Below are positions 1 to 20,240 of a DNA stretch of 20,504 bases, one piece after another; the stretch's first letter is position 1, and every line of letters begins with the position of its first letter. This DNA comes from a virus. The stretch is from positions 1-20,504 of the IMG/VR virus record IMGVR_UViG_3300020417_001093, one strand, 5' to 3'. The notes below the pieces were generated by a model that saw nothing but the letters and a program-made list of their open reading frames with translations, was not told the origin of the DNA and ran no database searches. A program made the position numbers and the translations under genes.

Positions 1-3000
1 TAAAATCAAATTGTGTTTTAAGGTAATCAAATAATAAATATAGAGAATTAAAGTTCTCAGTATCAAGTGAACCGAACCCTTCGTCAATGGCTATGAAGTT
101 TGGTCTTGGTAGGTTTGATACATTTATTAATGCTGTTCTAATTGCTATTGATGATATGAATTTTTCCATACCACTTGTTAATTCGAGAGGCCAATATTCA
201 TCACTTCCGTATGCAATGTATGAGTTGATATTTCTACCATCCGTATTCAATAACACTTGGAAGTCTACTATTGGTGATAGTATATTGTTTATCTCTATTT
301 CTAATTTTGGTAATACTTCGGATATTAATTGATATGGGATTCCATCTCGTCTAACACATTTAATGTAATATTCGTATCCGTCATATTTGATTTCCATTTC
401 ACGAAGTTTCTCGATTGACTCGTTAACTTGTTGTATGGAATTTTCTGCTAATGTAATCTCAGAGTTGACAGTCATCATTTCACCACCAACCTCATCTATC
501 TTCTCTTTTATAGAATCTCGTGTGAGTTTAAAAGATTTTATCTTTTCGTTTACCTGCTTGTTATGCTTAACTGCTTGTTCTTGGTTCTTTGCTTTCTGAA
601 GTTTAGACTTTAGTTCTTTTAACTGTATATCTAAATCTCTAACGTCTTGTATACACGACTCGTAAATCTTAGACGCAGTTAACCATTCCTTCTCTAAATC
701 TATCTGTTGTTTAGTAAGGGTGTCAAAGTCTTTTAAATCGTTTTTAACGTTAAAACTATCTCTTTCATCAATAAGTTTAACTTTCTTCTCTAAAAGGTCT
801 TTAAAACTCTTCTGTAGACCTTCTATGTCTTTTTGTAATTTATCTGCCTTTTTTACAATAGGAGTATTCTTGTTCTGCACACAATGTTCACAATCATCAT
901 CGAAAGTTAATTGACCGATTCCTTCTAAGGTATCTTTTTTATGAGTTATTTCTACATTGATGTTTTCCATCTTATTATCTAACTCGTTGAACTTTTTATC
1001 TAATCTATTAAACTTAGTATCTTTCTTTTTTAACTCTTTGATATCTAAGGTTTTAAGTTTACCTTCTATATCGTTTTTAGATACTTCGATATTTTTAAGT
1101 TCTGAAAGATTGTGGTCACACTCTTTGTTTTGAGTATCCCGAACTAATTCTAAATCTTTTAGTTCTTTTGAGATGTCATCTACATTACCAATATCCTCAA
1201 CGGGTTTTAGTTTTCTCATTTCAAACTCTATCTTAGTATTAGTATTTTCTAATTTAAGATTTAGTTCATCTTTTTTAGATTGTAATTCATCCAACGAACC
1301 CGTGATACTTGATAGTGTATTTTCTGCTTCAATTAGTTTTGTAGGAAAGTCTTGTTTTTTATATTCTCTAAGTAAAGTATTTAGTTCTCTAATCTCTTCA
1401 CTTGCGAGATGATATAAATCTTCGAATATATCCATATCCAAAAACTGTGCTAATAATTCTTTTCTTTCCTTTTGAGATTTTTCTATAAACCCACTGTTAT
1501 TAGATTGTGTTGACATTGCTGTTAAAACAAAATCTTCATATGTTCCAATGTAGTTTCTAATTATTGCGTTTGTCTCTCTACGTTGTTCACCATTCAATGA
1601 TTCTTTTTGTCCATCAATCATTCTATAGAAATCAACGTCAACTTTTACAGTTCCTCTTTTTGGACTTTTCTTTGCTTTTCTTTCTATGAAATATTCAACA
1701 CCATTTAACTCGAATTCAAACTTACAATCAAAATTCATTTTAGAGTAATTCATTACATCTTCTGCTCTGATTGTTCTTGAACACTTGTCAAACATACAAA
1801 ATGATAATGCGTCCCATAAAGTTGACTTACCACTTGCGTTTGGTGCAAAGATTCCATATGCACCTTTCATATTTGTAAAGTCAATTACATTGTTAGTTCC
1901 ATATGAGAACATATTAGAAAACTCAAATCGTTTTGGAATCCACGTTGAGTTACTTACAATATTTGGTTTTCCAAGTTTATCATTTATATCTTTATTGATA
2001 TTGGTAACTACACTTAGTTGTTCTTTTGTAAGGTGTTCTGTTTCTTCTAAATATTCTTCGATAAGTTTATTTTGAAAACCTGTATCTCTTACATTTTGTA
2101 ATACTATTGATTGATGTTCTACATCTCTTTTACGAGTTAAAACTTTTTGTACAGTTAGTTCTTGTACTTGTGCTTGTTTTTTAATCTTTGCGATTAATCT
2201 ATTAAGTTGTGAAGTCTTAGTATCTTTTACTCTTACCCTAACTCTTGGTTTATTAGGCATATAATTGTCAGATACTATTTTACCATTTTCAATATCAACA
2301 GTCACATATCCATAATCATTGTGTATTGGAACAAATTCACTTTTTAGATTTTTCATATCCCAAACTAAGATACCGTGAATAGGATATTTAGCTTCACCGT
2401 GATTTTGAACTATCAATGAGCCAGAATATTTGATATGTGATTTACCCATTACCTCGTTGTTTGGTTTATGGATATCACCTAACAATACTAAATCATAATT
2501 TTCAAAGTGTGATACTTTTACATTTTGATTCTGTATTACAAATCCGTGTTCAGTTTCAATGTTATCAACAGGACCGTGTAACATTGCAATTCGTCCATTG
2601 TTTTTCTTGTAGTCTGTAGCAGGTGGGAATCCTTCTGACTTATCCCATATTGATTTGTGTACAAACGTGTAACCACCGATTCCAACTGCACCTGTATCTT
2701 TTACATAGTGTAAGTTTGGGTGGTCTAATGCTTTTATGATAGGACTAAGAGCGTCCAATCTTGAAGTATTGTTTAGATTTGCGTCGTGATTGCCAGGAAT
2801 TACGATAGTTGGTAGTAAGTCTGATAACTTACATAAAAATTCTTGAGTTAAATCAACAACCTCAGGTGACATATCAGTTTTTGCGTGTACGATATCACCT
2901 GCGATATAAATGATGTCATTTTCCCTCATTGTGGATAAGATGTATCCATAAAGGTTGGAAAATACCTCACGGTATTCTTTATGTCGTTGAAGGTTTCTGA

Positions 3001-3073
3001 TATGCACATCTGCGATGTGATATATCTTTCCGATATCGGACACACCGACATCGATATACTTTATTCTTCTCAT
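1..3073 (-). CDS. Fused SbcD/Mre11 (gp47-like) nuclease and SbcC/Rad50 (gp46-like) ATPase, partial at left edge
   Basis: One reading frame stays open for 1024 codons from the ATG at 3073-3071 to the left edge. The N-terminal part is a calcineurin-like phosphoesterase with the Mre11/SbcD metal motifs: D22-V-H24, G59-D60, GNHD 94-97, LHG around H166 and GDIH 199-202. Residues about 285-375 are charged and helical, where SbcD carries its SbcC-binding region. A Rad50-type ATPase begins near W378: Walker A APNASGKST (K416, S417), a long coiled coil with a CxxC zinc hook C728-EH-C731, a second coiled coil, signature LTSG (S967, G968), Walker B IAIDE (D997, E998) and D-loop SLD. The H-loop and terminus lie beyond the edge. 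In T4 and bacteria these are two proteins that form an exonuclease/endonuclease acting on DNA ends in recombination-dependent replication and repair. I saw no stop, and no good internal start with a ribosome binding site, between the halves. The ATG overlaps the primase stop (ATGA), suggesting translational coupling. Confidence 0.93.
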   Translation of the reverse strand, partial: MRRIKYIDVGVSDIGKIYHIADVHIRNLQRHKEYREVFSNLYGYILSTMRENDIIYIAGDIVHAKTDMSPEVVDLTQEFLCKLSDLLPTIVIPGNHDANLNNTSRLDALSPIIKALDHPNLHYVKDTGAVGIGGYTFVHKSIWDKSEGFPPATDYKKNNGRIAMLHGPVDNIETEHGFVIQNQNVKVSHFENYDLVLLGDIHKPNNEVMGKSHIKYSGSLIVQNHGEAKYPIHGILVWDMKNLKSEFVPIHNDYGYVTVDIENGKIVSDNYMPNKPRVRVRVKDTKTSQLNRLIAKIKKQAQVQELTVQKVLTRKRDVEHQSIVLQNVRDTGFQNKLIEEYLEETEHLTKEQLSVVTNINKDINDKLGKPNIVSNSTWIPKRFEFSNMFSYGTNNVIDFTNMKGAYGIFAPNASGKSTLWDALSFCMFDKCSRTIRAEDVMNYSKMNFDCKFEFELNGVEYFIERKAKKSPKRGTVKVDVDFYRMIDGQKESLNGEQRRETNAIIRNYIGTYEDFVLTAMSTQSNNSGFIEKSQKERKELLAQFLDMDIFEDLYHLASEEIRELNTLLREYKKQDFPTKLIEAENTLSSITGSLDELQSKKDELNLKLENTNTKIEFEMRKLKPVEDIGNVDDISKELKDLELVRDTQNKECDHNLSELKNIEVSKNDIEGKLKTLDIKELKKKDTKFNRLDKKFNELDNKMENINVEITHKKDTLEGIGQLTFDDDCEHCVQNKNTPIVKKADKLQKDIEGLQKSFKDLLEKKVKLIDERDSFNVKNDLKDFDTLTKQQIDLEKEWLTASKIYESCIQDVRDLDIQLKELKSKLQKAKNQEQAVKHNKQVNEKIKSFKLTRDSIKEKIDEVGGEMMTVNSEITLAENSIQQVNESIEKLREMEIKYDGYEYYIKCVRRDGIPYQLISEVLPKLEIEINNILSPIVDFQVLLNTDGRNINSYIAYGSDEYWPLELTSGMEKFISSIAIRTALINVSNLPRPNFIAIDEGFGSLDTENFNSLYLLFDYLKTQFDF

Positions 3074-4031: not shown

Positions 4032-4466
4032 TTATTTTGAATAATCAAAGAAATTTTCCTTTTGTTTTTCCTCAATCCATTCTTGGGGTATTTCTTTTTT
4101 AGCCCATTTGAAACCATTCTTCTCACACCATTGAGCGTAAGTAGTTTTAGAACCTTTGTATATTTTACCGTTTGGGGACTGTAAAACAAATCGTAAATCC
4201 ATCTCAGGATTCTGTTCTCTGATGAGTAAATGTTTCTTTCTGTCCTCGGGTAAAAACCAACCCTTTGATTCAATGTAGATACCGTTTGGTAATTTGAAAT
4301 CGGGTTTGTAAGTGTGGTGTGTTGCTGGTACTGTATATGATACTTCGTGTTGTTCATATTCACCGTCAATTCCTTGTTGTTTGAGTTGTTCATCTATACG
4401 AGTTTCCAACCCACTTTTGTGTCCCTTCATTTTTTGGATGTGGGACCAATTTCCTTTTTTATTCAT
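4032..4466 (-). CDS. T7 gp3-type endonuclease I (Holliday junction resolvase)
   Basis: The 144-residue protein resembles phage T7 endonuclease I over almost its whole length: SGLETRIDEQL, THHTYKPDFKLPNGIYIE, DRKKHLLIREQNPE, the YKGS..TYAQWCEK segment and EIPQEWI. The T7 catalytic residues E20, D55, E65 and K67 correspond to E21, D56, E66 and K68, so the enzyme should be active. The family cuts four-way junctions and other branched DNA, resolving recombination and replication intermediates before packaging; T7 also uses it to degrade host DNA. T4 itself uses an unrelated resolvase, endonuclease VII, so this gene gives the cluster a mosaic character. Its ATG lies 2 nt after the stop of the upstream structural gene and has no clear ribosome binding site, suggesting translation coupled to that gene. 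Primase follows after 29 nt. A 124-codon open frame in another phase at 4019-4393 is a shadow. Confidence 0.94.
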   Translation of the reverse strand: MNKKGNWSHIQKMKGHKSGLETRIDEQLKQQGIDGEYEQHEVSYTVPATHHTYKPDFKLPNGIYIESKGWFLPEDRKKHLLIREQNPEMDLRFVLQSPNGKIYKGSKTTYAQWCEKNGFKWAKKEIPQEWIEEKQKENFFDYSK

Positions 4467-8273: not shown

Positions 8274-11200
8274 TTAACCACCTCTATTCGAAAATAATCC
8301 ACCTGACCTACGATTTCTTTGTTGTTGAAAAATATCGTCTAACGGTCCATTTGTAGTAGCTGCTGCTCCAAATGTTGAGTTATTATTTACAGGTGGTGGT
8401 GGTCCATATCCAAACGACACATTAGTCGTTGGTGGTGGTGTAGAACTTATTCTTGGTGCACCACCATTTCTATAAGCTCTTGCCGCTTGTTTTCTCGCTA
8501 CATTCTCAACTGCTCTTGATGTAGCGTTTACGTTTAACGTAACATTCTTTTGTGCAATTCCAACAGACGGAATAAAACTAAATGATACTTTTGTATCATC
8601 GCCTGGTATTTTCCCAATAGGTCTTTTTCTTCTTTTAGGTAATAATGGTAGTGCTGGTGGATTTCTAAATAAATCGTCTTCAATTGCTTTATCTATTGCT
8701 TTTGATGTTGATTTACTTATAGTTTCCACTGTATCAATGTGTTTTTTAACTGATACTAAATCCTCAGATTCCATAACATTTATTACCTTTGTTGCTCCCT
8801 TTGAATCAAGTTCAACTTCTTTTGTAGTACTTACTACGATATCAGTATCACTAACCTGAGTTACTTCTATTACAGGACTGTTGTCAGGAGTATCCGCTGA
8901 ATTTGCTGTTAAAGATGTACTTGATATTTTACATCCTAAATAGAATAAGTTATTTAGATTACCTGTCAATCTATCATCTTGAACTCTTGCAAAATGGAAT
9001 GACGCGGAACTTGCGAACTCAGGACCTTTTGATGCACTTATTTCGTTTGTGTAAAAATATCTTGGTTCCAATGCTGTTCTTGAAAGTCTTGCGTCTAATA
9101 TAGTAGAACCTGTTGGTGAGTATTCCCAATATGGATTTGTATCTGTAAAGTAATCACCTGAAGAACTAAGTCTTTGGATGTCGGTGTATTTGTAAACAGA
9201 CGGTTTAAATACATCTTTGGTTATACTACTTGTGTAAGTTAAGTAAGAACCTGATATTATACTTAACGTTGTTACTCCACTACTCTCATATTGATTTTGT
9301 GTGAATGAGATTCCTTGTGGTCTTAAATAATTGTTTCTCTCAAAAATATGTGGTTCAACTAAAATACCTTTATGCCAATCAGCTCTTGCTGGAACTAACT
9401 GTTTCATTGAATCAAAGATAGACATATCATATCTTGATAACATATCTAATTGAATCTGAAGTGCGGTTCTTCCTGTATATTTTTGGAAATAGTTTCTTGC
9501 TCTAAAATCTAATAAATCATATCCGTCATTATTTCTAACATCAGTATCACCAACCAAATCACCTGCGTCAAAGTAACCTTCAGACGCGTAGATATCAAAG
9601 TTGACTGTATCTGTTGTAGAGAAATAAGTTCCTAATAAATTAGAATCAAGAGGCGCTTCATCGTATTGACTTTTTTCATTACTAACATCAAATTGTAATG
9701 GACCTCTTAATGATGAAGATTCTATTCTTACTTTCTTATTTGTTAAGTTTAGTGCTCCAACAGATGGAATAGAAACAAACTGAGTATCTACTTCACCTGA
9801 TAATCTTGATGCGTCTGCTTGTCCAAATCTATCAAAAGACGCAGATAATATAAGACCCGTTGCTGATGAGGTAAACTGCTGATTAGGATGTCTTGATGAT
9901 ATAGAACCACTAATGTTATTGTATGTACTATCAGGGAAAATTCTATATAGAAGATTCTCATATGATGTGTCGATATCTAAATCAGTTGTATTATCATCAG
10001 AATAATATGCGTCAGTATTTGCTGCGTGACCAAGTATGACTTCGTTTGATAACTGTTTTTTGTAGTATCTTATTTCTTGGATACTTGATGTAGTATTTCC
10101 CGCATTAGTAAATGGTATAGAAATAGACGCACTTCTACCTGTTGGTGATGTTGGGTTCCAAATACTATCTATGCTACTATCATCCCAAGACGCAGTTGGA
10201 TTTGCTAATGTGAATCCCCAATCGTCAACCCATGCTGAGTTAAGTGTATATCCACCTGACCCCGATGATATTGCTACTATAACATTTCTTTCTTGTTTGT
10301 AAGGAACATATGGTGTTGATGCTAACGCTCCACCACCAACATAATTAACAACCCATCTTGCTTTTCCCGTTACTTGGTTATACTCCCATTTTAAATCATA
10401 GGTGTCGGAAATATTATGTCTCATGATTGTGTGATTACCCTGTGGTAGTTTTGCTATTATTTCAATAGTCTTTGGTCTATGACCATTAATTTTATCCCAT
10501 GGGTTCTCTGAACGACATGCTCCGTCTAATTGTAGTTTGTAGATATATCTTTCGTGTTCGTATATCTCTTTAGTATCTTTTATTCTCGGTCCACCGTACT
10601 CTCTAATCTTTAAGAATGCACTTGGAACACCATAAGAAGATATCAATGTTTTAAATGAACGTGCAGTACCTTTACTTTTGTATATTCCTGGCACGTTATT
10701 TAATAATCTTCTCCAAGTTTCGTGAACAATCTCTTTTGTTGGTTTAGAATATAGAGAACCTGATTGTATTGGATTACCTGTTTGGTCAACTCCGAATTCG
10801 TATTTCCATAATGAAGTATCGGAGTATCCATTAAATAGTTTCCAACCAAATGAGTTTGTAATAACCTCAATCAAATCCTGTGCCATACCATCTTTAGGAT
10901 GTTCTTCTCTATCATTGATTTGAGTAATTTCTTTTATGTAGTTGTAGAATATATCAAAATGTTGACCTAACATTTTTACAAACTCAACATACTCTTCGTT
11001 CTTTTCATCAAACGCTAAATTAGCAGGAATCATTTCTGTTAACTTAGTATCATTTAATGCGTCATATGCTTTTGCTGTCTCAATTGTATTATTAAACCAA
11101 CTTGTACCGTTTGATGATGTCAAGTCATATAACGTATGTGGGTTCTTTAATTCTTTTGGATATGGGTCTATTACAAACTGTGACGAACTAAAGTGTGTAT

Positions 11201-12740
11201 ATAAAGATGACTCATGATTATAGTACATCCAATATTCAAAGTCATCAAACCCACCAATCAACGCGTCTCTTCTACTTGTTGATGATGAAATGTTTGTTAT
11301 TGCTTCAGAACCACTTACTCCTGTTAAAGTTTGGATTCTCGTGTTGTATCCTTCTACAAGTTGTAGTTTGTATTTAAAGTTTCTAACTCTTTCTTCTGCT
11401 GATGAAAAGTGAATAAAGTTTTTTAAGTCAGAATAATCTATATTTAGTGTTACGTTTCCAAGTGAACCACTGAAAAACTTATCTACGATTTGTTGTCTTG
11501 TTGGTAGACCTGCGTCTAATAAAGAATCCCAAGATTCGAACTCACCTGCTGCTCCTTTGTTGTCACCCAAATCAATGTTGAAGTTTGGATTTGAAAAGAA
11601 AGGAATCATATTAGGGTCTTCGAGTCCCTCGTATATGATTATATTATCTATATACGGTTTTACTAATTGTAGTGAGATATCAAGTGTATCATTAACATTT
11701 ATAGTTGATGGTAATTCTTGACTTAGTTTAACAATTACTTCATTTACAGTATTTAGATTAAGGTCAAATGCATTATATCGTACATCTAATGCGTTTATGT
11801 TTAATGACGAGTAAGTTGGTTGAATAAATGCGTCTCTCGTCGCTTGGTCTACATCAGATGGTAATTCTTCTGGCGATAAATACGTTTCATTTTTTCTTAA
11901 CCAACTTAAAGATGTGTCTGCGTTTCTGACAAGTTTAAATCTATCAAAAATACCTGTTAATCTATATTTTGTTATAGGGAAGAAAGTGTTACCACCTTGA
12001 ACAGTGTCATCTAAGTCAACTTCTGCAAATGTAACAAAGTCTGTTGTATTGTCGTCACCAAATCCTGTTTCTAATGGTGTTTGTGTTACGGGGACAAATA
12101 TTGTATTTCTATTAGAGTCATTAACACTCGTGTCACCAACAGGAAATGGTAGTGACGCGGAAAAGAGTCCACCACGTTGTCCCATAAACTGTGCATTAAC
12201 AATTGGATATAAATTGTTTGCTCCAAAGTTTAATTGTGCTGGTAAAAATGTATCATCACCTGAGAATGTGTTCCCCACAAGACCATTTGGTGTACTGTAT
12301 AGTTGGTATAGGTTTGATAGACCGTTTATGTTTGAGGATTGGATTTTTACTTCTTTTCTGTTTGGTGAAATCTCTGTTATTTTCAATCCTGATGCTGCTT
12401 GGTGTAAAAAGTTATACACCATTTTATATGTACCACTTTTGTAACCACCATCTCTTATGTCTTGACCTGGCCTTATGAAAAGAGTTTTATTACCAACGTC
12501 ACCGACTGTGTTAAATGGTAAACCGGCTCTACCACCCAAGTACGCTCCTTGTGGTGTATAGTAATGAACTTCTAAGTTTGGTGTAGTAAATGATGGAATA
12601 CCTGTGATGTCTTCGTCACTTAAAACAGGGTATGTTGCTCCCTCTGCTATTAGTGCAACATCTTCAGGTGAAAACACCTCTCCGAAGATAGGTTGTTTAC
12701 CATTTACTTCATCTTCATTAAAAAATCTATCTAAAGGCAT
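8274..12740 (-). CDS. Large tail/baseplate protein with internal LamG-like domain
   Basis: The 1488-residue protein is the largest complete gene. The N-terminal part (about 50-135) contains LEVHYYTPQGAYLGG, GTYKMVYNFLH and LKITEISPNRKEVKI. Residues 560-715 are helical and end with LLNNVPGIYKSKGTARSFK and ISSYGVPSAFLKIREYGGP, a pattern reminiscent of tail-tip/baseplate proteins. Residues about 730-910 look like a LamG/concanavalin fold ending SIQEIRYYKKQLSNEVI. Residues about 1095-1135 contain DSMKQLVPARADWHKGILVEPHI. The C-terminus from about 1360 is a Pro/Arg-rich then Gly/Asn-rich disordered tail. It occupies the region where T4 has gp7 after gp6, but I see no direct gp7 similarity, so an equivalent role is only positional inference. 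Its ATG lies 14 nt inside the end of the nucleotidyltransferase gene, with a weak ribosome binding site, so translation is probably coupled. Confidence 0.88.
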   Translation of the reverse strand: MPLDRFFNEDEVNGKQPIFGEVFSPEDVALIAEGATYPVLSDEDITGIPSFTTPNLEVHYYTPQGAYLGGRAGLPFNTVGDVGNKTLFIRPGQDIRDGGYKSGTYKMVYNFLHQAASGLKITEISPNRKEVKIQSSNINGLSNLYQLYSTPNGLVGNTFSGDDTFLPAQLNFGANNLYPIVNAQFMGQRGGLFSASLPFPVGDTSVNDSNRNTIFVPVTQTPLETGFGDDNTTDFVTFAEVDLDDTVQGGNTFFPITKYRLTGIFDRFKLVRNADTSLSWLRKNETYLSPEELPSDVDQATRDAFIQPTYSSLNINALDVRYNAFDLNLNTVNEVIVKLSQELPSTINVNDTLDISLQLVKPYIDNIIIYEGLEDPNMIPFFSNPNFNIDLGDNKGAAGEFESWDSLLDAGLPTRQQIVDKFFSGSLGNVTLNIDYSDLKNFIHFSSAEERVRNFKYKLQLVEGYNTRIQTLTGVSGSEAITNISSSTSRRDALIGGFDDFEYWMYYNHESSLYTHFSSSQFVIDPYPKELKNPHTLYDLTSSNGTSWFNNTIETAKAYDALNDTKLTEMIPANLAFDEKNEEYVEFVKMLGQHFDIFYNYIKEITQINDREEHPKDGMAQDLIEVITNSFGWKLFNGYSDTSLWKYEFGVDQTGNPIQSGSLYSKPTKEIVHETWRRLLNNVPGIYKSKGTARSFKTLISSYGVPSAFLKIREYGGPRIKDTKEIYEHERYIYKLQLDGACRSENPWDKINGHRPKTIEIIAKLPQGNHTIMRHNISDTYDLKWEYNQVTGKARWVVNYVGGGALASTPYVPYKQERNVIVAISSGSGGYTLNSAWVDDWGFTLANPTASWDDSSIDSIWNPTSPTGRSASISIPFTNAGNTTSSIQEIRYYKKQLSNEVILGHAANTDAYYSDDNTTDLDIDTSYENLLYRIFPDSTYNNISGSISSRHPNQQFTSSATGLILSASFDRFGQADASRLSGEVDTQFVSIPSVGALNLTNKKVRIESSSLRGPLQFDVSNEKSQYDEAPLDSNLLGTYFSTTDTVNFDIYASEGYFDAGDLVGDTDVRNNDGYDLLDFRARNYFQKYTGRTALQIQLDMLSRYDMSIFDSMKQLVPARADWHKGILVEPHIFERNNYLRPQGISFTQNQYESSGVTTLSIISGSYLTYTSSITKDVFKPSVYKYTDIQRLSSSGDYFTDTNPYWEYSPTGSTILDARLSRTALEPRYFYTNEISASKGPEFASSASFHFARVQDDRLTGNLNNLFYLGCKISSTSLTANSADTPDNSPVIEVTQVSDTDIVVSTTKEVELDSKGATKVINVMESEDLVSVKKHIDTVETISKSTSKAIDKAIEDDLFRNPPALPLLPKRRKRPIGKIPGDDTKVSFSFIPSVGIAQKNVTLNVNATSRAVENVARKQAARAYRNGGAPRISSTPPPTTNVSFGYGPPPPVNNNSTFGAAATTNGPLDDIFQQQRNRRSGGLFSNRGG

Positions 12741-13308
12741 TCTTTAAGTCCATATATTTTCCCGTATAAGTTTTTTCTCTCATACGTTTGTTAACTTTAG
12801 ATGCTGTCATATAATCGTATCCTGTTACTTCATATAGACCATCTATAATTTCTTTACATCTCATGTCTTTTGGCATATTTCTTTTTTCTAAAGTTCTACC
12901 ATTGACCGTTTTGATACTGTAATTGTAATTCTTTATTCTTGTGAACTTACTTAACTTAGAAGGTCGTTGACACTTTTTTCTAAGACCAAGATGTTCTGTC
13001 CAAAGAGTTTCACAACTCCACTTTATATCTATAAACATTTTAGATTCAAATCCCATTATCATTGCTGTATCTAAAATATGTTTTAGTTTTGTATAATCTT
13101 TTACTTCGTTTCTTAACACAATATCCACATCCATTGTTGGGATATTTGCTCCATAAATATTCTCTGCGAATGAACCAACTAAATATACTCTATAGTCTGA
13201 TAAGTCAACCTCTCGGTTGAATCTATTCCACCAACCCCTAAACGTGTCAAACCTTGGTTGTTCCCAAGGTGTGAAAGTTTTTATATTTCCGATTGTAAAT
13301 TCAAACAT
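12727..13308 (-). CDS. Nucleotidyltransferase-fold protein inside the tail operon
   Basis: The 193-residue product carries the minimal polymerase-beta-type nucleotidyltransferase signature: YLVGSFAENIYG (G45-S46) followed by MDVDIVL (D60, D62), and a third acidic strand FIDIKW with D94. All three metal-binding acids are present, so catalysis is plausible. After the core the protein is basic (RKKCQRPSKLSKFTRIKNYN), and the C-terminus is helical and Lys/Arg-rich, consistent with binding RNA or DNA. The family transfers nucleotides to tRNA, protein, antibiotics or other acceptors, and the substrate cannot be read from the sequence. It sits between virion genes and overlaps the start of the 1488-residue tail gene by 14 nt, so it is expressed late with them. 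The ATG is the first in frame after a stop at 13318-13320, with only a weak ribosome binding site. It might be a moron gene or part of a virion-delivered activity. Confidence 0.82.
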   Translation of the reverse strand: MFEFTIGNIKTFTPWEQPRFDTFRGWWNRFNREVDLSDYRVYLVGSFAENIYGANIPTMDVDIVLRNEVKDYTKLKHILDTAMIMGFESKMFIDIKWSCETLWTEHLGLRKKCQRPSKLSKFTRIKNYNYSIKTVNGRTLEKRNMPKDMRCKEIIDGLYEVTGYDYMTASKVNKRMREKTYTGKYMDLKNAFR

Positions 13309-13321
13309 ATCATATACTCAT

Positions 13322-13852
13322 TTATAGATAATTCATAGTAAAGTTTCGGTCAGGGCCCGAGTCTGTGTTAAATCCATATGAATCGTATCCACCTACTCCA
13401 ATTGGACTTCCGTCTTGGGTGTTACCACCTGTACCACCACCACCTTGACTACCACCACCTGTAGAAACTACTCCACCTGTGGTTCCTGCTGAACCTGCTG
13501 CTGCTTGTCCTGTTGATGGGTTGGATGGTGTACTTGCAACACCACTTGATTGGAATCCACTTGACGCTAAACTCCCACCACCTGTTGCTCCTGCGAGTGA
13601 TGTTCTAACGTTTGCGTTTGTTCTGACACTAACACCTACAAACTGTAATTCAGATATAACTGAATCAGTACCTTCTAATACTCTTCCTAATCTAAACCTT
13701 TCGGGAGTTGTTGCTCCACCATCTTGTGATGTAATATACACTTTAGAGTATGACGGAAGTGGTGTTCCTACAGGTACCTGTGCTGGTTGTGGAATCTCAT
13801 AGGAGACAATCTGTCCCCTTACGTTTCTTTTTAAGTCTCTATCTACACTCAT
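13322..13852 (-). CDS. Small virion-type protein with Gly/Ser/Thr-rich tail
   Basis: The family is not recognised. Residues 1-90 of 176 look globular (RGQIVSYEIPQPAQVPVG, YSKVYITSQDGG, then RFRLGRVLEGTDSVISEL), predicted mainly beta. From about residue 88 to 155 the protein is almost only Gly, Ser, Thr, Ala and Gln, with GGVVSTGGGSQGGGGTGG, and then ends DSYGFNTDSGPDRNFTMNYL. Such linkers are common in appendage or baseplate proteins, where they give flexibility. The ATG shares one base with the stop of the upstream 691-residue gene (TAATG), which indicates translational coupling. The nucleotidyltransferase gene starts 13 nt downstream. A structural role is inferred only from this context. 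Confidence 0.75.
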   Translation of the reverse strand: MSVDRDLKRNVRGQIVSYEIPQPAQVPVGTPLPSYSKVYITSQDGGATTPERFRLGRVLEGTDSVISELQFVGVSVRTNANVRTSLAGATGGGSLASSGFQSSGVASTPSNPSTGQAAAGSAGTTGGVVSTGGGSQGGGGTGGNTQDGSPIGVGGYDSYGFNTDSGPDRNFTMNYL

Positions 13853-15927
13853 TATCTAATTACCTTAAAGTAAAAGTTGTCATCGTAGTATCTTACATTA
13901 CCACCTTGGTCAACTCTAAAACAAAATTTGTAAAATCTTTCAGGTTGTAATCCGTTGAACCAAAAGTTAAAGTAATTACCACTACTATCACAACTCAACT
14001 TTGTGTAGTTAGTATCAAATGGAACAATGACTTGTTCTGTTTCTGCGTCAACTACTGAGTAATATGATGTGGTTGGTAAATACTTTACAGTCTTCAATGG
14101 ACTTGTAGAGAAACTTCTGTTAGGATATCTCTCTCTACCAAATACTCTTATTTTTCCTTTGGATGATTCTTTATATTCTGTTTGTAAATTTTTAACATAA
14201 AGAATTAAATCGTCACCACTTAGTGCGTCTAACGACCCTGTATCGAATGATGAGTCGTCCCACCTTGCTTCTAAGACAGGTGGATATATTGTATGTGTAT
14301 CAGTTGAGAAGAACTTAATCTTACCAAAGTTGATTGTTGAATTCTCATCTGTTTTGGATTTCTTAATTATGAATCCGTTGTTTGTTCTTGTTCCATCAAT
14401 CCATTCTGATACATAATCAGTTACTTCAACATTGATGTTATCAGTATTTCTGTTAAAAGATTGATAGTAATGCTTCCCACTTCCAAATGAAGAAGTAAAC
14501 CATGTACCACCACCTGATGTTTTACTAAAATGTGCGTCATATTTGTTATCATTAAATCTTGCACTTGTTGTATCGTGGTCAAACGATTTTATTAAAATAT
14601 TATCTAACGATGCACTTGCTTGTAAGTCACTACCACTTGCATAGTAAGACCATCTAAATAAATGTTGTCCTGATTCTCTTGCTTGGAATATAATTCTTTG
14701 AGTCATACTTGATGTTATGTATCTTGTATAACCTGTAAAGTCGTTTATGTCTACCAATCTACCCGTTGGTGTTTGTACTGTAAACTCAATACCTAATGGA
14801 CTACCATCACCTCGTGTATCAGGGAAGTTTCCTGGCACTATATCAAAACTAGCTGTATAGTTTGCGTTTTCTTGTAGAGTAAACTTTCTGTTTAGTGTTG
14901 CTCCACCAAACTTTGACGATGTCATAGTCAATGTATTGTTCAATACTTCTGCTGAACCTGTAATACCATCTAAGTTTTGAATCCCCTCATTTATTATATA
15001 AGTTGAAGGTAAGTCAGTTAAGTTTGATGCGAATTGGTCAAACACTAAAGTGTTAGGGTCGGTTGTTGTGTAAAGGAAAAAGTTATCTATGTTTCCTTCT
15101 GACCCGTCTGACCCGTCTTCGTCAAAATATGTAAACTGTAATTTGTGAACTCCTGGCATACTTGCTGTAAATGCCATTTTATATGTTGCTGTTGATACTA
15201 ATGATTCTTGGAACCCAACGATGTCTGAGTTTAATCGAGACCCACTTGGATTGATTACATTGAAATCAACTCCTGTTAAAGATTCTCTGTTAAAATCAAA
15301 TTGAATATTGTATACTGACCCCGAGTCTAATGATGATGATAGATTTGCTGTACCACCACTAAAATCTGATGCTGACATAATTAATCTACCACCCGATACA
15401 AATAGTAATGGGTCATCTCCGTTTGTACCTTTTATCTTATCAACTAATTCAAAGTTACCAACACTTCCTGCGAAGTTGTAATATGCGTTTAACGAACTTA
15501 GTGTGTCTGCGTTTAATGCTTTTCCTTCTGTAGAGTTGTCTACGTCCCATTTAGAACCACTGATTCTAAATACCCAATTTGATGCGTGTTCACTCTTTGG
15601 TGAATCACTAAACTGACCAAGTCCTTCATTCCATGATTCTTTTAGTGGGTATACAAATAAATCAAAGTCGTCTTGTAATTCTGAACTTTCTATATTTTCT
15701 AATCTTAGTCTATATTGAGGTGACGTAATTGTTCCGTCTGCTACAGAGGATGATATTGGTGTCAAATCGAAACCAAGAAGTATTCTACTGTTTCCAACAA
15801 ACGTTATGTTGTCGTCACCATAGAACTTACCTACTTCAAGAATTTGGTCTTTACCTGTATTCTGAAGTTTCAGGTTGTCCTTCTCGTAGATAGTGTTGTC
15901 TTTATTTGGGTATATTCTATATATCAT
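13852..15927 (-). CDS. Virion protein: DNRLRE-like domain with two inserted beta-sandwich modules
   Basis: The 691-residue protein begins IYRIYPNKDNTIYEKD...NTG...SRILLGFDL, and residues 90-127 include LKESWNEGLGQF, resembling the DNRLRE beta-sandwich family found in secreted and phage-surface proteins. The matching second half seems to resume only at about 493-560 (INVEVTDYVSEWIDGT, NNGFIIKKSK). Between them are two similar modules, about 150-288 and 295-450. Each has the order L-[IT]-M-[ST]-[AS]-S-x-F-[SG]-G, a strand with FDF or FDI, PSG or PTG, a strand ending [HQ]HL-type, and a final [IL]DN[FI] strand, typical of carbohydrate-binding jelly rolls. Residues 565-691 may form a third beta domain (FNGLQPERFYKFCFRVD). 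It directly follows gp6, with AAGAGGTGA before the ATG overlapping the gp6 stop, so it is probably a baseplate or short-fibre component that contacts the host. Domain names are inferred from sequence pattern alone. Confidence 0.82.
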   Translation of the reverse strand: MIYRIYPNKDNTIYEKDNLKLQNTGKDQILEVGKFYGDDNITFVGNSRILLGFDLTPISSSVADGTITSPQYRLRLENIESSELQDDFDLFVYPLKESWNEGLGQFSDSPKSEHASNWVFRISGSKWDVDNSTEGKALNADTLSSLNAYYNFAGSVGNFELVDKIKGTNGDDPLLFVSGGRLIMSASDFSGGTANLSSSLDSGSVYNIQFDFNRESLTGVDFNVINPSGSRLNSDIVGFQESLVSTATYKMAFTASMPGVHKLQFTYFDEDGSDGSEGNIDNFFLYTTTDPNTLVFDQFASNLTDLPSTYIINEGIQNLDGITGSAEVLNNTLTMTSSKFGGATLNRKFTLQENANYTASFDIVPGNFPDTRGDGSPLGIEFTVQTPTGRLVDINDFTGYTRYITSSMTQRIIFQARESGQHLFRWSYYASGSDLQASASLDNILIKSFDHDTTSARFNDNKYDAHFSKTSGGGTWFTSSFGSGKHYYQSFNRNTDNINVEVTDYVSEWIDGTRTNNGFIIKKSKTDENSTINFGKIKFFSTDTHTIYPPVLEARWDDSSFDTGSLDALSGDDLILYVKNLQTEYKESSKGKIRVFGRERYPNRSFSTSPLKTVKYLPTTSYYSVVDAETEQVIVPFDTNYTKLSCDSSGNYFNFWFNGLQPERFYKFCFRVDQGGNVRYYDDNFYFKVIR

Positions 15928-15937
15928 TTTTCACCTC

Positions 15938-17851
15938 TTAAAATAATGGTACCACTCTACCTCTAATGTCTGTATCAGGATATTTAACCTCAAATATAGA
16001 CGGGTCTTTAGGTGGATAGATTACACCATTTCTTGTTGCGTATTTCATGTCGTATCTTCTCGGTGAGTAGGTTCCACCATACTTGTTGGTGATTTGTAAT
16101 CCACCAAGTCCATCTTTGTCAGGTCTTACAACACTCTGTACACCATCTACATCATCTAACATGACATATACATCCGACAATAATATCGGTTGATTTATTT
16201 GTTGGTTGTCTACTTTAAAATAATCTCTTAATTTACTTATACATTTTAAAAGTATTTCATTTGAGTTGTAATTTGGTTTTACTACTATCTCGAAATCGAT
16301 TCCTATATTTACAATGTATGCGTTTTTAATATTAATCGCATCTGTAAGTATTCTATAGAACGATAAATAATTCGCAAGATTTTGTTTTGTTGCGACATTT
16401 AGTTCTGTAATGTTTTTGTTTGAGTCATATCCTAATACATAAAAGTTTATACCAAGTGGATTGGATATTGGATTAGGACCATCATCTAATGATGTCTCTA
16501 TTTGAAAGTCAGGAGCGACAAATGCTTTTGCTACCGAACCAAATTGTGGTGGCATCGCATAAGTTCTAACTACATAGTCTTCTCTTGTTACTGACCTGTT
16601 CTGTGCTCCGAAATATGCTTTTGCATTTTCTCTTACTTCATCAACAGTTTCTTCGAACTTACCACCAACTGCGGCTGCTTCGTTTGACATTGCTATAGAG
16701 TTTCTTGCTTGATTGTACAATGATGTATCAAGTCCTAACGTTGATGTTTCGATTTGAATGTTTCCAATTTGTGTTAAATCATTACTTGGAACATTATCTG
16801 ATACACCTTGACTTACTCTATATGTAACTGTTAGTGTTTGGTTAGCAGGAGCTACTCCATATGTTTTAGAATACAGAAAGTTTGATGGGTCTAAACCTTG
16901 ATTTAAGTTACCACTTGCATTATATAATGCGGACCCAACATTGTCAGGGTTAGGAAGTAGTTCTTCGTCTGCGTTTGCAGATATACCTGCTCCAAACTGA
17001 ATATGTATTTCACCATCGTCTGATACTCTTGTGATGTATCTCTTCGGTACTTTTTTTAATTTTAGTAACGAAGGTGTATCAGAACTATATGCTGAATACT
17101 CTAATGAGTACTCTTCAGTATTTGGAGTTTCTTCAAATACGGTGTCTTGACCAAGGTAATCTACCTTTGTCCAATCCTCACCGTCATCATCAGATATTTT
17201 GATTACATCTATAAGACCGTCTTCGTCTTGTAATCTAATTTTATCATATATCTTTGGGGTACCAAATGTAAAAGTCTGTGTCTTTTCTTTACCACTTGTT
17301 GCTTTTACATACTTCTTTAAAAGATATTTAATTGGTTCGTTGTTGTTGTCATCAATTTGATAAACAGAAACTTCAGTCGGGTCGAATGAAGATGAATAGT
17401 TAAATCTTACTTTTTGATTTGTACTAAACTCAACCTCACCGTTAGATTCCGCGGTTACTGTCGCTCCTTCTTTAATTGTAAGAGCGTATCTCCAATCGGG
17501 TCTAACACTGTCACCACTTCCTATTGAAGGTACTATTTGATATACACTTAAGGTTGTTGTAGCAGGTACATTTAGTTTTGGTTTGTAACCATATGCTTGT
17601 GAGATTGTAAATATATTTTTCTTTTCCTGAGCTTCTTCTAATAAAGATTCTCTTAACTGAACATCAGTATAGTAAGAAAGTACGTCACCAACATATGACG
17701 CAAGTTCCAATATCATCATACCTGGCGATGACTCGTTAAAATCGTTATATGTTTGTGGGAAGTAAGTTTTTGTGAAGTCAACAAGATTATTTCTTATTTC
17801 TCCAAAATCCCTTCCTAAAAGTTTTACTTCCTTTTTTATTTTGTCTGCCAT
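15938..17851 (-). CDS. gp6: Baseplate wedge protein, gp6-like (baseplate J family)
   Basis: The 637-residue protein has the hallmark N-terminus of T4-type gp6: LLGRDFGEIRNNLVDF, then YNDFNESSPGMMILELASYV and GDVLSYYTDVQLRESLLEEA (residues 11-74). A second conserved block, NRSVTREDYVVRTYAMPPQFG at about 418-438, is shared by Baseplate_J proteins. T4 gp6 dimerises and joins the baseplate wedges into the ring around the hub, and holds the dome-to-star switch; T4 gp6 is similar in length at about 660 residues. The adjacent upstream gp25-like gene is the natural partner, as the two interact directly in the T4 wedge. It starts 9 nt after the gp25 stop and lacks a strong Shine-Dalgarno sequence (AGGGTTAG is the nearest). 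No truncation is apparent. Confidence 0.93.
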   Translation of the reverse strand: MADKIKKEVKLLGRDFGEIRNNLVDFTKTYFPQTYNDFNESSPGMMILELASYVGDVLSYYTDVQLRESLLEEAQEKKNIFTISQAYGYKPKLNVPATTTLSVYQIVPSIGSGDSVRPDWRYALTIKEGATVTAESNGEVEFSTNQKVRFNYSSSFDPTEVSVYQIDDNNNEPIKYLLKKYVKATSGKEKTQTFTFGTPKIYDKIRLQDEDGLIDVIKISDDDGEDWTKVDYLGQDTVFEETPNTEEYSLEYSAYSSDTPSLLKLKKVPKRYITRVSDDGEIHIQFGAGISANADEELLPNPDNVGSALYNASGNLNQGLDPSNFLYSKTYGVAPANQTLTVTYRVSQGVSDNVPSNDLTQIGNIQIETSTLGLDTSLYNQARNSIAMSNEAAAVGGKFEETVDEVRENAKAYFGAQNRSVTREDYVVRTYAMPPQFGSVAKAFVAPDFQIETSLDDGPNPISNPLGINFYVLGYDSNKNITELNVATKQNLANYLSFYRILTDAINIKNAYIVNIGIDFEIVVKPNYNSNEILLKCISKLRDYFKVDNQQINQPILLSDVYVMLDDVDGVQSVVRPDKDGLGGLQITNKYGGTYSPRRYDMKYATRNGVIYPPKDPSIFEVKYPDTDIRGRVVPLF

Positions 17852-17860
17852 ATTCTAACC

Positions 17861-18298
17861 CTATGCGATTGAAAGACTACCCTGTTCATCTACGTTTACT
17901 ATAATTATCTGATTTGCTCCACTTTCTCCTACAGAAAACGAAAAAGAAATATTAATTCTATTTTCATTTGGTAAATCATCTACTATAATTTCTTTTATAT
18001 TAATGTAAGGTAACCAAAATTCTATATCCTTCTGCAATCCCGCTTTTAGATTGTCAAGTAGGTTTTTTGTTATATTTTCAAACAAGAAAGATGGGACATC
18101 AGTTCCAAATAATGGTTGAAACGGTCTCTCACCTTTTCTTGTTAATAATAAGTTTTTTAAGTTAGATAGTGCCTGTTCTTCTGTCGTAAACGTGCTTGCG
18201 AATATAGGAGTCCCACCCAATGGTAATGGAATACCCACACCTATGTTTTTCTGTAGGTCTAATGGGTGATACTTTTTCTCTTCACGTTTTCTTGACAT
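17861..18298 (-). CDS. gp25: Baseplate wedge protein, gp25-like
   Basis: The 145-residue protein matches the gp25/lysozyme-like baseplate family (also TssE of type VI secretion): LLLTRKGERPFQPLFGTDVPSF, cut here as LLLTRKGERPF (about residues 50-60) followed by QPLFGTDVPSFLFE, then ISFSFSV near the end. In T4, gp25 sits at the junction of wedge and tail sheath and is needed to start sheath assembly. Length is close to T4 gp25 (132 residues), with a short charged N-terminal extension (SRKREEKKYHPLDL). The ATG overlaps the stop of the upstream gene by one base (TAATG), and the gp6-like gene follows after 9 nt, a baseplate gene order also found in T4 relatives. Confidence 0.93.
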   Translation of the reverse strand: MSRKREEKKYHPLDLQKNIGVGIPLPLGGTPIFASTFTTEEQALSNLKNLLLTRKGERPFQPLFGTDVPSFLFENITKNLLDNLKAGLQKDIEFWLPYINIKEIIVDDLPNENRINISFSFSVGESGANQIIIVNVDEQGSLSIA

Positions 18299-18744
18299 TA
18301 TACTCTACCCTTCTTCGTATCTATTGCTTTCATTAACTGAGAATAGTCTCTTGTTAATGCGTTACCAACACCTGAGTTCATCACTGCGTTTACATCAACT
18401 GCTCTACCATCAGAATCTTGTGTTGGTATCATTGATTGTTGTGTTGGTTGATTACTAAGACCCATCATCGACGCCATAGTTTGTCTATCCATACCTTGAG
18501 CATGTTGTGATGTCAAGGTTTGACCACCCATGGTATCCCAAGTGTCTACTGTTTCGTTTAACAAATCAGAAAACTTGTTACCCTTGAACTTGACCTTTGG
18601 TTTTTTACTTTGAGTTTTAGTTTGAGGCGTACTCATCTCTTTAATAACAGATTCTCTGATAGTTGTTTTTTGTTTTTCAACTTCCTTACGAACCTCTTCT
18701 TTTATTAAGAGTTTTAACGCTTTTACAAATTTATTAGTGTCCAT
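18298..18744 (-). CDS. Small unknown protein with N-terminal helix, upstream of gp25
   Basis: The family is not recognised. Residues 1-38 of 148 are strongly helical and charged (KALKLLIKEEVRKEVEKQK, then IRESVIKEM), probably a coiled coil. A Lys-rich segment (KKPKVKFKGNKFSDLL) follows, then a Met/Gln-rich stretch (MDRQTMASMMGLSNQPTQQSM) that looks flexible. The end is ALTRDYSQLMKAIDTKKGRV. Its place between the spike-type and gp25-like genes suggests a virion or assembly role. It follows a 44-nt AT-rich gap that contains the putative promoter motif. No Shine-Dalgarno sequence precedes the ATG, unlike most neighbours. Its stop overlaps the gp25 start by one base. Confidence 0.78.
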   Translation of the reverse strand: MDTNKFVKALKLLIKEEVRKEVEKQKTTIRESVIKEMSTPQTKTQSKKPKVKFKGNKFSDLLNETVDTWDTMGGQTLTSQHAQGMDRQTMASMMGLSNQPTQQSMIPTQDSDGRAVDVNAVMNSGVGNALTRDYSQLMKAIDTKKGRV

Positions 18745-18788
18745 AATTGTATTTGTTTTTATATAAATATGATTTAATTAAATTATTA
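18745..18788 (-). promoter_or_regulatory. AT-rich gap with second copy of the putative promoter motif
   Basis: This 44-nt gap is the second largest in the window. On the coding strand it holds ATATTTATATAA at 18770-18759, identical to the 12-mer at 8240-8229, and 15-20 nt before the ATG at 18744. A TTTAATTAAA palindrome lies just upstream (about 18773-18782). The repeat at two gene-initial gaps suggests a promoter, possibly for late genes. The strand is assigned from the genes it precedes; TATAAATA itself lies on the plus strand at 18762-18769. Confidence 0.45.
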
Positions 18789-19268
18789 TTACGACCAAGG
18801 TGAAACTGTTGTACCAATTGTGTATGTTCCTGTTCTCATATACACGTCAACAGCATTTGAAAACTTAGTCGCAAATATTTGTCTTGATTGATATATGGGG
18901 GACACGGGGGTACCCCAAATAGTTAATAATGTTATCTTTAACGCTCCTAATCCTGCTGGTGGAGTTGCTGCTGTTGCTCCCGCCGCTATCATTCCCGCGG
19001 GAAATTGAGCAGTATACGCTGCTAACCAATCTGCAAACATTAACATAAGTTTACCGTTTGGTGCACTTGGTATTGCACTCGTAGCAAGATTTGCTTTAAA
19101 TGATTGGTCCATTGGTGGTTTACCATTGACTGCATATATTATTGGATTAGAATAGGAAATAATTGCCTCACCTATTGTTTCTGCTGCGGATTCATATGTG
19201 GTTCCATCATCTACCGCATTAAAATAATTTAAGATATCGTTTTTTAAATTTGCTTTTATTAAAGGCAT
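18789..19268 (-). CDS. Small unknown protein, probably virion-associated
   Basis: The family is not recognised with certainty. The 159-residue product begins MPLIKANLKNDILNYFNAVD, then SAAETIGEAIISYSNPI, a helical start. The middle is Ala/Gly/Pro-rich and hydrophobic (PAGMIAAGATAATPPAGLGA, residues about 90-109), and the end is Thr-rich (MRTGTYTIGTTVSPWS). The hydrophobic middle contains several prolines and is not a clear membrane segment. AGGAAGT before the ATG is a good ribosome binding site. It lies 9 nt after the spike-like gene in the same unit, so a role in tail or baseplate assembly is inferred only from position. Confidence 0.75.
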   Translation of the reverse strand: MPLIKANLKNDILNYFNAVDDGTTYESAAETIGEAIISYSNPIIYAVNGKPPMDQSFKANLATSAIPSAPNGKLMLMFADWLAAYTAQFPAGMIAAGATAATPPAGLGALKITLLTIWGTPVSPIYQSRQIFATKFSNAVDVYMRTGTYTIGTTVSPWS

Positions 19269-19277
19269 TGTAACTTC

Positions 19278-20240
19278 CTATTGACTAATCTTAGCTTTAA
19301 GTGCTGCCACTTTAGATACTGCAGGTGCTAATGGACCTGTAGGACCAACGGGTGTTGGATACTTTCCGTCTGCTATTATTTTTAGTATCTCTAATAAGTC
19401 ATCTAAATACTCATTTAGTAATAACTTATATCCACTTGTACTAATAGCAAGATTATCTTTAGACGATAGTATAATTGATTCGTCTCTTGCGTTCAAATGA
19501 ATTCTACCCGAGTTCATGAAGATACCTTTATCACTATATCCACTTGTCGCAGATATTGGTGGTAAAGAATTTGGTGTTGATAATTTTACAGTCTGTCCCG
19601 ATGTTAAATAAATTGACGAATCATCTTTATCAACATCTTCAATAACAAATTTATTCCAACCACCTTCTTCTTGATGGTTTCTAATTATTGTTATTGGTTT
19701 AGTTGGGTCACCACTCCAACTTGGGTCTTTTGATGTACCTGCTCCTGACGGTGTGTGACCAAGTCTTATTGATTGACCATATCTACCTTCTATCAAAACG
19801 TCACCACTAAATGGTTGAAGTCCTGATAAGTCTTTTACTTCATCAAAACCTGCTTCAAATTCAAAATCTTTTTCGTTATTGGATTCAGGATTACCTGCTG
19901 CTGCTTCATCGTAACCACTTGACCCACCTTTACCTTTTGATGCGGTTATTGACTTTGGTAGTACATTGTGGTTTATATTGTGTTGTAGTGAATTACTTGT
20001 AACATAAAAATATCGTCTTCCACCACCACTCGTTTTGCTATCAGAACTTTTTCCTTTTACTAAGTAAACAAGTTCACCTACTACGGGAACTCTTTTGATA
20101 TTTACGTCAAGTGGATATACGATTTCTGTAGTTAGTGAAGACCCTGTAGAGGTTTTTATCGCTACTTCTATTCCATGTAGGTTATCACCATCACTATCTA
20201 CTAACTCTATCTTTGTTACAAGTCCATAAAGATTACTCAT
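19278..20240 (-). CDS. Baseplate hub/spike-like protein with OB-like start and needle-type beta repeats
   Basis: The 320-residue protein has a beta-rich N-terminus (residues 1-65, YGLVTKIELVDSDGDNLHGI to VPVVGELVYLVKG), consistent with an OB fold as in phage spike proteins. A Gly/Ser linker covers about 100-125. After it comes PFSGDVLIEGRYGQSIRLG (143-161), then KPITIIRN, SSIYLTSGQTVKL and GIFMNSGRIHLNARDESIIL SS (two pieces), where short strands succeed each other every 8-10 residues, as in the trimeric beta-helix needle of T4 gp5 or P2 gpV. No lysozyme domain is visible, unlike T4 gp5. The C-terminus is helical then Pro-rich (YPTPVGPTGPLAPAVSKVAA). The protein would form the membrane-piercing tip at the baseplate centre. 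AAAGGAG lies upstream of the ATG, and the start overlaps the upstream gene by 8 nt. Confidence 0.75.
   Translation of the reverse strand: MSNLYGLVTKIELVDSDGDNLHGIEVAIKTSTGSSLTTEIVYPLDVNIKRVPVVGELVYLVKGKSSDSKTSGGGRRYFYVTSNSLQHNINHNVLPKSITASKGKGGSSGYDEAAAGNPESNNEKDFEFEAGFDEVKDLSGLQPFSGDVLIEGRYGQSIRLGHTPSGAGTSKDPSWSGDPTKPITIIRNHQEEGGWNKFVIEDVDKDDSSIYLTSGQTVKLSTPNSLPPISATSGYSDKGIFMNSGRIHLNARDESIILSSKDNLAISTSGYKLLLNEYLDDLLEILKIIADGKYPTPVGPTGPLAPAVSKVAALKAKISQ

Follow-up and report, generated by a model that had tools for sequence, protein, structure and literature searches.

A single reading frame for nuclease and ATPase

The window, by which we mean the whole 20.5-kb virus record analysed here, carries at one end a minus-strand gene encoding an SbcD/Mre11 nuclease joined to an SbcC/Rad50 ATPase in a single chain. 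The first genes of the window are the following.

2..3073, minus strand: SbcD-SbcC (Mre11-Rad50) fusion gene; 1024 codons in the window, 3' end lost at the contig end
3070..4002, minus strand: DnaG-type primase, the end of which overlaps the fusion start by 4 bases (3070-3073)
4032..4466, minus strand: T7-endonuclease-I-type nuclease (PF05367, E 2.8e-55)

The open reading frame of the fusion starts with an ATG at 3073 and continues through 1024 codons with zero stops to base 2, running off the contig end. The last 32 residues thus lie outside the window and are supplied by two relatives, L004 and L005 (99.9% identical), which give a complete protein of 1056 residues. Pfam assigns residues 16-204 to Metallophos (E 5.4e-11) and residues 386-609 to AAA_23 (E 3.3e-12), and chance is excluded because both matches fall within one protein. 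The nuclease motifs are DVH (22-24), G59-D60 as part of GDIVH (59-63), GNHD (94-97), H166, and GDIH (199-202), while the ATPase part contains GKS (415-417, with K416), CEHC (728-731), LTSG (965-968), and DEGF (997-1000). The first-pass annotation, which had placed both sets of motifs in one frame of this length, is confirmed by the reading frame, the two Pfam domains, and the presence of every motif it named, the one correction being that it had given LTSG as 966-968. The junction at residues 330-380 is stop-free, as it had also claimed. Across junction residues 321-385, substitutions at the first, second, and third codon positions number 5/4/24 against the relative L012 and 10/3/30 against L015; most changes fall on the third position, as predicted for translated sequence, and the junction evolves as coding DNA.

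Domain architecture and structure prediction

The protein can be divided into the following parts, all on the minus strand.

2354..3031, minus strand: Mre11/SbcD nuclease domain, residues 15-240 (Pfam, motifs, structure match with 7dog)
2141..2353, minus strand: capping-domain region, residues 241-311 (alignments with SbcD/Mre11 chains extend to residues 309-316)
2084..2140, minus strand: probable flexible linker, residues 312-330 (pLDDT below 50 at 312-324)
1973..2083, minus strand: junction helix-loop-helix (HLH), helices 331-345 and 350-367, sitting where the Rad50-binding HLH of Mre11 belongs
1946..1972, minus strand: 9-residue tether, residues 368-376, to the first Rad50 strand (model)
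1394..1945, minus strand: Rad50/SbcC ATPase head, N-terminal half, residues 377-560 (Walker A PNASGKST; structure match with 7yzo)
929..1393, minus strand: coiled-coil arm 1, about residues 561-715 (model)
881..892, minus strand: zinc-hook motif CEHC, residues 728-731 (sequence)
404..853, minus strand: coiled-coil arm 2, about residues 741-890 (model)
2..403, minus strand: ATPase head, C-terminal half, residues 891-1024 in the window (signature TSGME, Walker B AIDEGF)

The AlphaFold2 model, built for the complete L004 protein from an alignment of 53 sequences, has a mean pLDDT of 81.8 and a pTM of 0.43, so that its single domains are usable and its domain arrangement is unreliable. In the model, residues 15-311 resemble the SbcD nuclease with its cap (7dog; 276 aligned, Z 25.0, rmsd 3.5) and residues 378-1056 resemble the head of SbcC (7yzo; 349 aligned, Z 29.0, rmsd 3.5), with the first Rad50 strand formed by residues 377-386. 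The hallmarks of SbcC/Rad50 are all present: Walker A, Walker B, the signature (SGME, as opposed to SGGE), and a CxxC hook between coiled coils. Nuclease activity is uncertain because the motifs deviate, with GDIVH in place of GDxxD and GDIH in place of GHxH.

By their position and topology in the model, the junction helices may represent an Mre11-type Rad50-binding HLH. A profile of this stretch matched no Mre11 among solved structures at E<=10; its sole matches there were two entries of the single-strand-binding protein gp32 (E 0.032), and within T4 gp32 was likewise the sole match (E 0.008). In phage Mosig, a protein annotated as an AAA ATPase and encoded next to the sliding clamp scores alike (E 0.012). 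In bits, T4 gp32 reaches 12.4, whereas non-fusion frames of the loci reach 8.7 at most and 1673 scored gp32 shuffles peak at 7.3. A search of seven records for gp32, run without a positive control, found none. The likeness to gp32 is treated here as chance; a remote relation is compatible with the controls.

That fusion fixes nuclease and ATPase at 1:1 and tethers one to the other is backed by sequence, conservation, and model. The first-pass annotation had gone further and placed the nuclease next to its own ATPase head, so that its interpretation stands in part: the 9-residue tether makes such a cis placement plausible, but the prediction is of a single chain at pTM 0.43 and does not secure the contact.

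One gene might nonetheless yield two proteins, if translation also began internally, ahead of the ATPase, or if the linker were cleaved, and so give an ordinary two-subunit SbcCD. The former route would be suited by two ATG codons in the frame, at residues 388 and 402, the first of them encoding a methionine (M388) invariant in 53 aligned proteins, and the latter by the low-confidence linker at 312-324. However, a product starting at M388 would be truncated, since the first Rad50 strand (377-386) precedes it, and neither of the two in-frame ATGs between residues 301 and 417 has a Shine-Dalgarno-like motif ahead of it, on which ground the internal start is rejected. A two-protein outcome as a whole is very improbable.

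Relatives and conservation

Related loci were drawn from a first scan of viral contigs (16), a profile scan (at least 80, of which 76 were new), bacterial genome contigs (3), and phage records (3); in the profile scan, at least 481 of 600 candidate stretches encode a relative. Counts are given for 97 loci, leaving out the window, its copy L020, and L099, for which no blastp match was found. Among the matches listed, a single open reading frame extends from residue 20 or earlier to residue 440 or later, past Walker A, in 91 of the 97, among them relatives with as little as about 25% identity. The others are L041 and L097, cut by the contig start (beginning at residues 168 and 90) and in one frame thereafter; L017 and L019, which stop at residues 437 and 57, where their contigs end; L002, interrupted inside the nuclease and resuming at 216; and L098, which starts at 265 and is without a nuclease domain. 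Among the 91 is L028, in which an in-frame TAA (L028:8842-8844) falls at residue 842 of an otherwise open fusion gene and may be a sequence error or mark a broken copy. Single proteins with both domains, which the first-pass annotation had proposed to look for in phage DNA, are thus numerous.

Members of the main group are between 100% and about 40% identical to the window protein, and L003 is 26% identical to it. Motifs were counted in the 81 proteins that reach both ends (76 of them distinct, four ending at a contig edge), a set that leaves out the window, L020, L002, L028, and loci cut short. The 77 proteins free of contig edges are 1035-1073 residues long, apart from L003 with 1202. GDIH, CxxC, and SGME are each found in 81 of 81; GNHD occurs in 80, with GNHE in the remaining one, and GDxxH likewise in 80 of 81, while a GKS/GKT P-loop is universal in the set, 15 proteins having it as GKSA. 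The Rad50 signature reads SGME rather than SGGE in all 81 as well as in Tenacibaculum phage pT24, and SGFE in L098. An alignment of 52 of these locus proteins together with the window protein (A2) and one of 43 of the 52 junction stretches (A3) were also made.

The order of the two domains is that of neighbouring genes in other phages, and a lost stop or a frameshift introduced by sequencing or assembly could in principle have joined a pair in gp47-gp46 order. In five phages with separate genes, SbcD does lie upstream of SbcC on the same strand, the two overlapping in Stubb and being separated by one or two small genes in P-SSM2, Troll, Mosig, and T4. Against such an error, the same frame recurs on other contigs at 40-100% identity and in the record of phage Mel-JY01, and third-position substitutions dominate across the junction. 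With independent assemblies sharing the frame and the junction substitutions being coding-like, an artefact is rejected as almost inconceivable. Neither a stop or frameshift in the junction nor an erroneous fusion amid separate-gene relatives, either of which would have overturned the first-pass annotation, turned up.

Gene neighbourhood

Upstream neighbours were counted in 90 loci, including L002, L003, and L098, the other 7 of the 97 having too little upstream sequence. A primase lies upstream in 89 of them: within the set distance in 82, overlapping the stop-to-stop frame slightly beyond the set limit in 5, and about 850 bases off in 2. L003 is the sole exception, with no primase found upstream. 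T7-type endonuclease I is encoded within 2 kb upstream in 73 of the 90. Farther along the window lie structural genes, including baseplate-wedge proteins recognised by PHROGs. Among six proteins encoded at 8274-20240, four are unmatched in PHROGs (8274-12740, 12727-13308, 13852-15927, and 19278-20240); the one at 13852-15927 matches a DNRLRE domain in NCBIfam.

Within the near group, nine larger records (Mel-JY01 plus eight viral contigs 96-181 kb long) were searched for further Mre11 or Rad50 proteins, and in most of them the fusion is the sole match. It is the only AAA_23 match in 8 of 9, G002 having no AAA_23 match at all, and the only Metallophos match in 8 of 9, G006 containing two more such ORFs of 219 and 247 aa. 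With PHROG 77 (SbcC-like) it is the sole match in 6 of 7 records, G002 among them, and Mel-JY01 has two further weak matches. RecA was found in seven of the nine larger records and a search of the other two found none. More distant huge-phage records differ in number of matches, with three for AAA_23 and four for Metallophos in LR756501, and one and two, respectively, in LR756508.

Rad50 relatives also occur in defence systems, and the ATPase part could be taken for an LmuB-like protein of the Lamassu type rather than part of a replication and recombination nuclease. PADLOC, run on two fusion proteins, matches its LmuB model to residues 392-1029 (E 2.6e-26), and Lamassu chains are among the Foldseek rows. 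Against this, the N-terminus is an Mre11 nuclease domain with its motifs, the neighbours are a primase and T7 endonuclease I, and scans of window proteins with Pfam, PHROGs, and NCBIfam name no LmuA-type effector, the sequence beyond the 3' end of the gene falling outside the window. As the LmuB model covers the ATPase part alone and the neighbours are replication genes, a Lamassu defence protein is rejected as extremely improbable.

Phylogeny and unusual relatives

In the ATPase tree, a 100% branch sets the window-type fusions, L001 and L002 among them, apart from T4, P-SSM2, Mosig, Troll, Stubb, and E. coli, and the fusions L003 and pT24 together with the nuclease-less L098 fall on the side away from window-type fusions. 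In the nuclease tree, for which E. coli SbcD was used without its first residues, weakly supported branches place the separate proteins, along with L003 and pT24, within the fusions. The trees are compatible with a single or a repeated origin of the fusion and do not decide between them.

Two relatives depart from the common layout. In the 484-kb phage record LR756508 (L002:5989-10214), a 305-aa ORF interrupts the fusion gene just past GDIH, the three ORFs of the interrupted gene overlapping or abutting. The inserted ORF matches a TnsA-like endonuclease in Pfam and HNH endonuclease and head-closure families in PHROGs, and the gene may have been fractured by a homing endonuclease; a comparison of the interruption with Rfam gave no match at the gathering score and, with E allowed up to 1, a single unrelated hit below threshold, and thus no sign of an intron. 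On a contig of a yak-rumen metagenome-assembled genome assigned to Paludibacteraceae (L098:1527-3953), an 808-aa Rad50-like protein without a nuclease domain has a primase ORF upstream. Its N-terminus is likely a fusion-type HLH (E 8e-6 for the protein and 7e-5 for the stretch, among 16 sequences), and it may be a fusion whose nuclease has been lost or is encoded elsewhere.

Proposed function

In SbcCD and Mre11-Rad50, the ATP state controls the access of the nuclease to DNA ends. The fusion very likely constitutes a complete Mre11-Rad50 (SbcD-SbcC) end-processing machine in one chain, which would act as a homodimer and serve recombination-dependent replication. The single frame, the motifs, the order of the domains, their conservation, and the gene neighbours are observed; the dimer, switching by ATP, contact in cis, and the part played in replication are inferred. 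A homodimeric M2R2 complex with an ATP-gated nuclease is the simplest reading because the parts and their order match those of Mre11-Rad50: nuclease, capping domain, flexible linker, helix-loop-helix, short tether, and Rad50 head with the CxxC hook at the tip of the coiled coil. Two chains would thus assemble into the usual M2R2 complex, in which ATP-bound heads would clamp DNA ends. Upon hydrolysis, each nuclease may swing on the linker preceding the HLH and cut or resect the end; this linker would let the nuclease move while the HLH stays at the root of the coiled coil. The resulting 3' strands would be passed to the RecA-type recombinase of the phage for recombination-dependent replication and repair, the primase and the T7-type junction nuclease working alongside. 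Such a role in end resection is likely because RecA, primase, and the T7-type nuclease occur in the same phages. For T4 gp46/47, a role in recombination-dependent replication is discussed in passages of PMC3175470.

A more far-reaching reading would make the fused chain the only and obligatory Mre11/Rad50 of a large group of aquatic phages, the uniform GDIH and SGME motifs and the tether reflecting a changed cycle such as a cis-locked endonuclease with little exonuclease activity; this is unlikely. The fusion leaves the understanding of Mre11/Rad50 unchanged. With nuclease and ATPase fixed at 1:1, a 1056-residue single-chain enzyme would be handy for structural and single-molecule work, and many full-length phage versions are now available.

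Comparison with known systems

Fusion of nuclease and ATPase has been known since 2011 and is common in viral DNA from natural waters. In the parts of PMC3175470 (Yoshida, Claverie & Ogata 2011) drawn on here, an Mre11/Rad50 fusion is described in Mimivirus R555 and twelve further proteins, among them a Bacillus phage 0305phi8-36 protein and plasmid proteins, and 249 R555 homologs of the GOS metagenome are analysed, the fusion being confirmed only for a few long metagenome sequences. The novelty implied by the first-pass annotation therefore fails, the fusion being published, abundant in viral contigs, and present in host-named phages; as that annotation itself had set out, such abundance removes the novelty and leaves the call in place. 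Besides PMC3175470, literature searches found no paper on the Mre11/Rad50 fusion itself. Passages of PMC7824862 describe SbcC and SbcD as nearly universal in jumbo phages and mention no SbcC-SbcD fusion.

The window protein fits the fused, non-canonical viral Mre11/Rad50 group of PMC3175470 (R555 type) as its text describes it. Both have the nuclease followed by the ATPase in one chain. According to the paper's text, R555 has His for the third Asp of GDxxD, which GDIVH of the window protein matches, and Asp for His206 of P. furiosus Mre11, as GDIH can be read. Deviations of the GDxxH and GDIH kind also occur outside the R555 type, as in Stubb D12, a separate protein with GDVFH and GDLH. The tether, estimated at 9-12 residues in the text of PMC3175470, has 9 in the window protein. 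Primase and T7-gp3-type endonuclease genes, the neighbours found in the window, are shared by marine metagenome scaffolds with R555 homologs described there, some of which were suggested to be phage-derived. R555 differs, by that paper's text, in its 1351 aa, its longer coiled coil, and its origin from a giant amoeba virus, whereas the window protein has 1056 aa and lies in a stretch with tailed-phage baseplate genes. BFVD, which holds viral proteins only, agrees in part with this grouping: seven of its best nine rows are named proteins of giant or large eukaryotic viruses (969-1389 residues) and two are unnamed; the top row, from Tupanvirus, has 25% identity over 1321 columns. TM-scores of these nine are only 0.24-0.40, presumably on account of long coiled coils that superpose poorly, and phage rows follow with pT24 (row 10), LMTA-57 (13), and PTm1 (14).

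Of the phages with a named host that carry a fusion, Microcystis phage Mel-JY01 encodes WWT39521.1, a 1066-aa chain 40% identical over its full length and likewise with a primase upstream; it differs in its Microcystis host and in a small ORF between primase and fusion, and its annotation as 'AAA domain containing protein' omits the nuclease part. A literature search found no paper naming this phage. BPT24_019 of pT24 (phrog_35725) resembles the window protein as a 1310-aa chain with Metallophos, GDIH, CxxC, and SGME and is matched by the fusion profile at E 9.4e-29, but is distant: Pfam AAA_23 is not reached at E 0.1 and a GK[ST][ST] P-loop was not found.

The PHROG 77 profile extends about 290 positions ahead of the start of T4 gp46, and from position 213 on it matches the fusion, beginning at residue 287; this family may already hold fused or HLH-bearing members. 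Among the matches listed, separate-gene phages align with the fusion in the ATPase part, at 21-24% identity. SbcCD of E. coli and archaeal and thermotogal Mre11-Rad50 share the folds and most catalytic motifs with the fusion but are encoded by two separate genes, and E. coli has SGGE and GHIH where the fusion has SGME and GDIH. T4 gp47/gp46 and the T5-type D12/D13, the phage SbcD/SbcC pair, have their genes in the order in which the two parts follow one another in the fusion, yet they are made as separate proteins.
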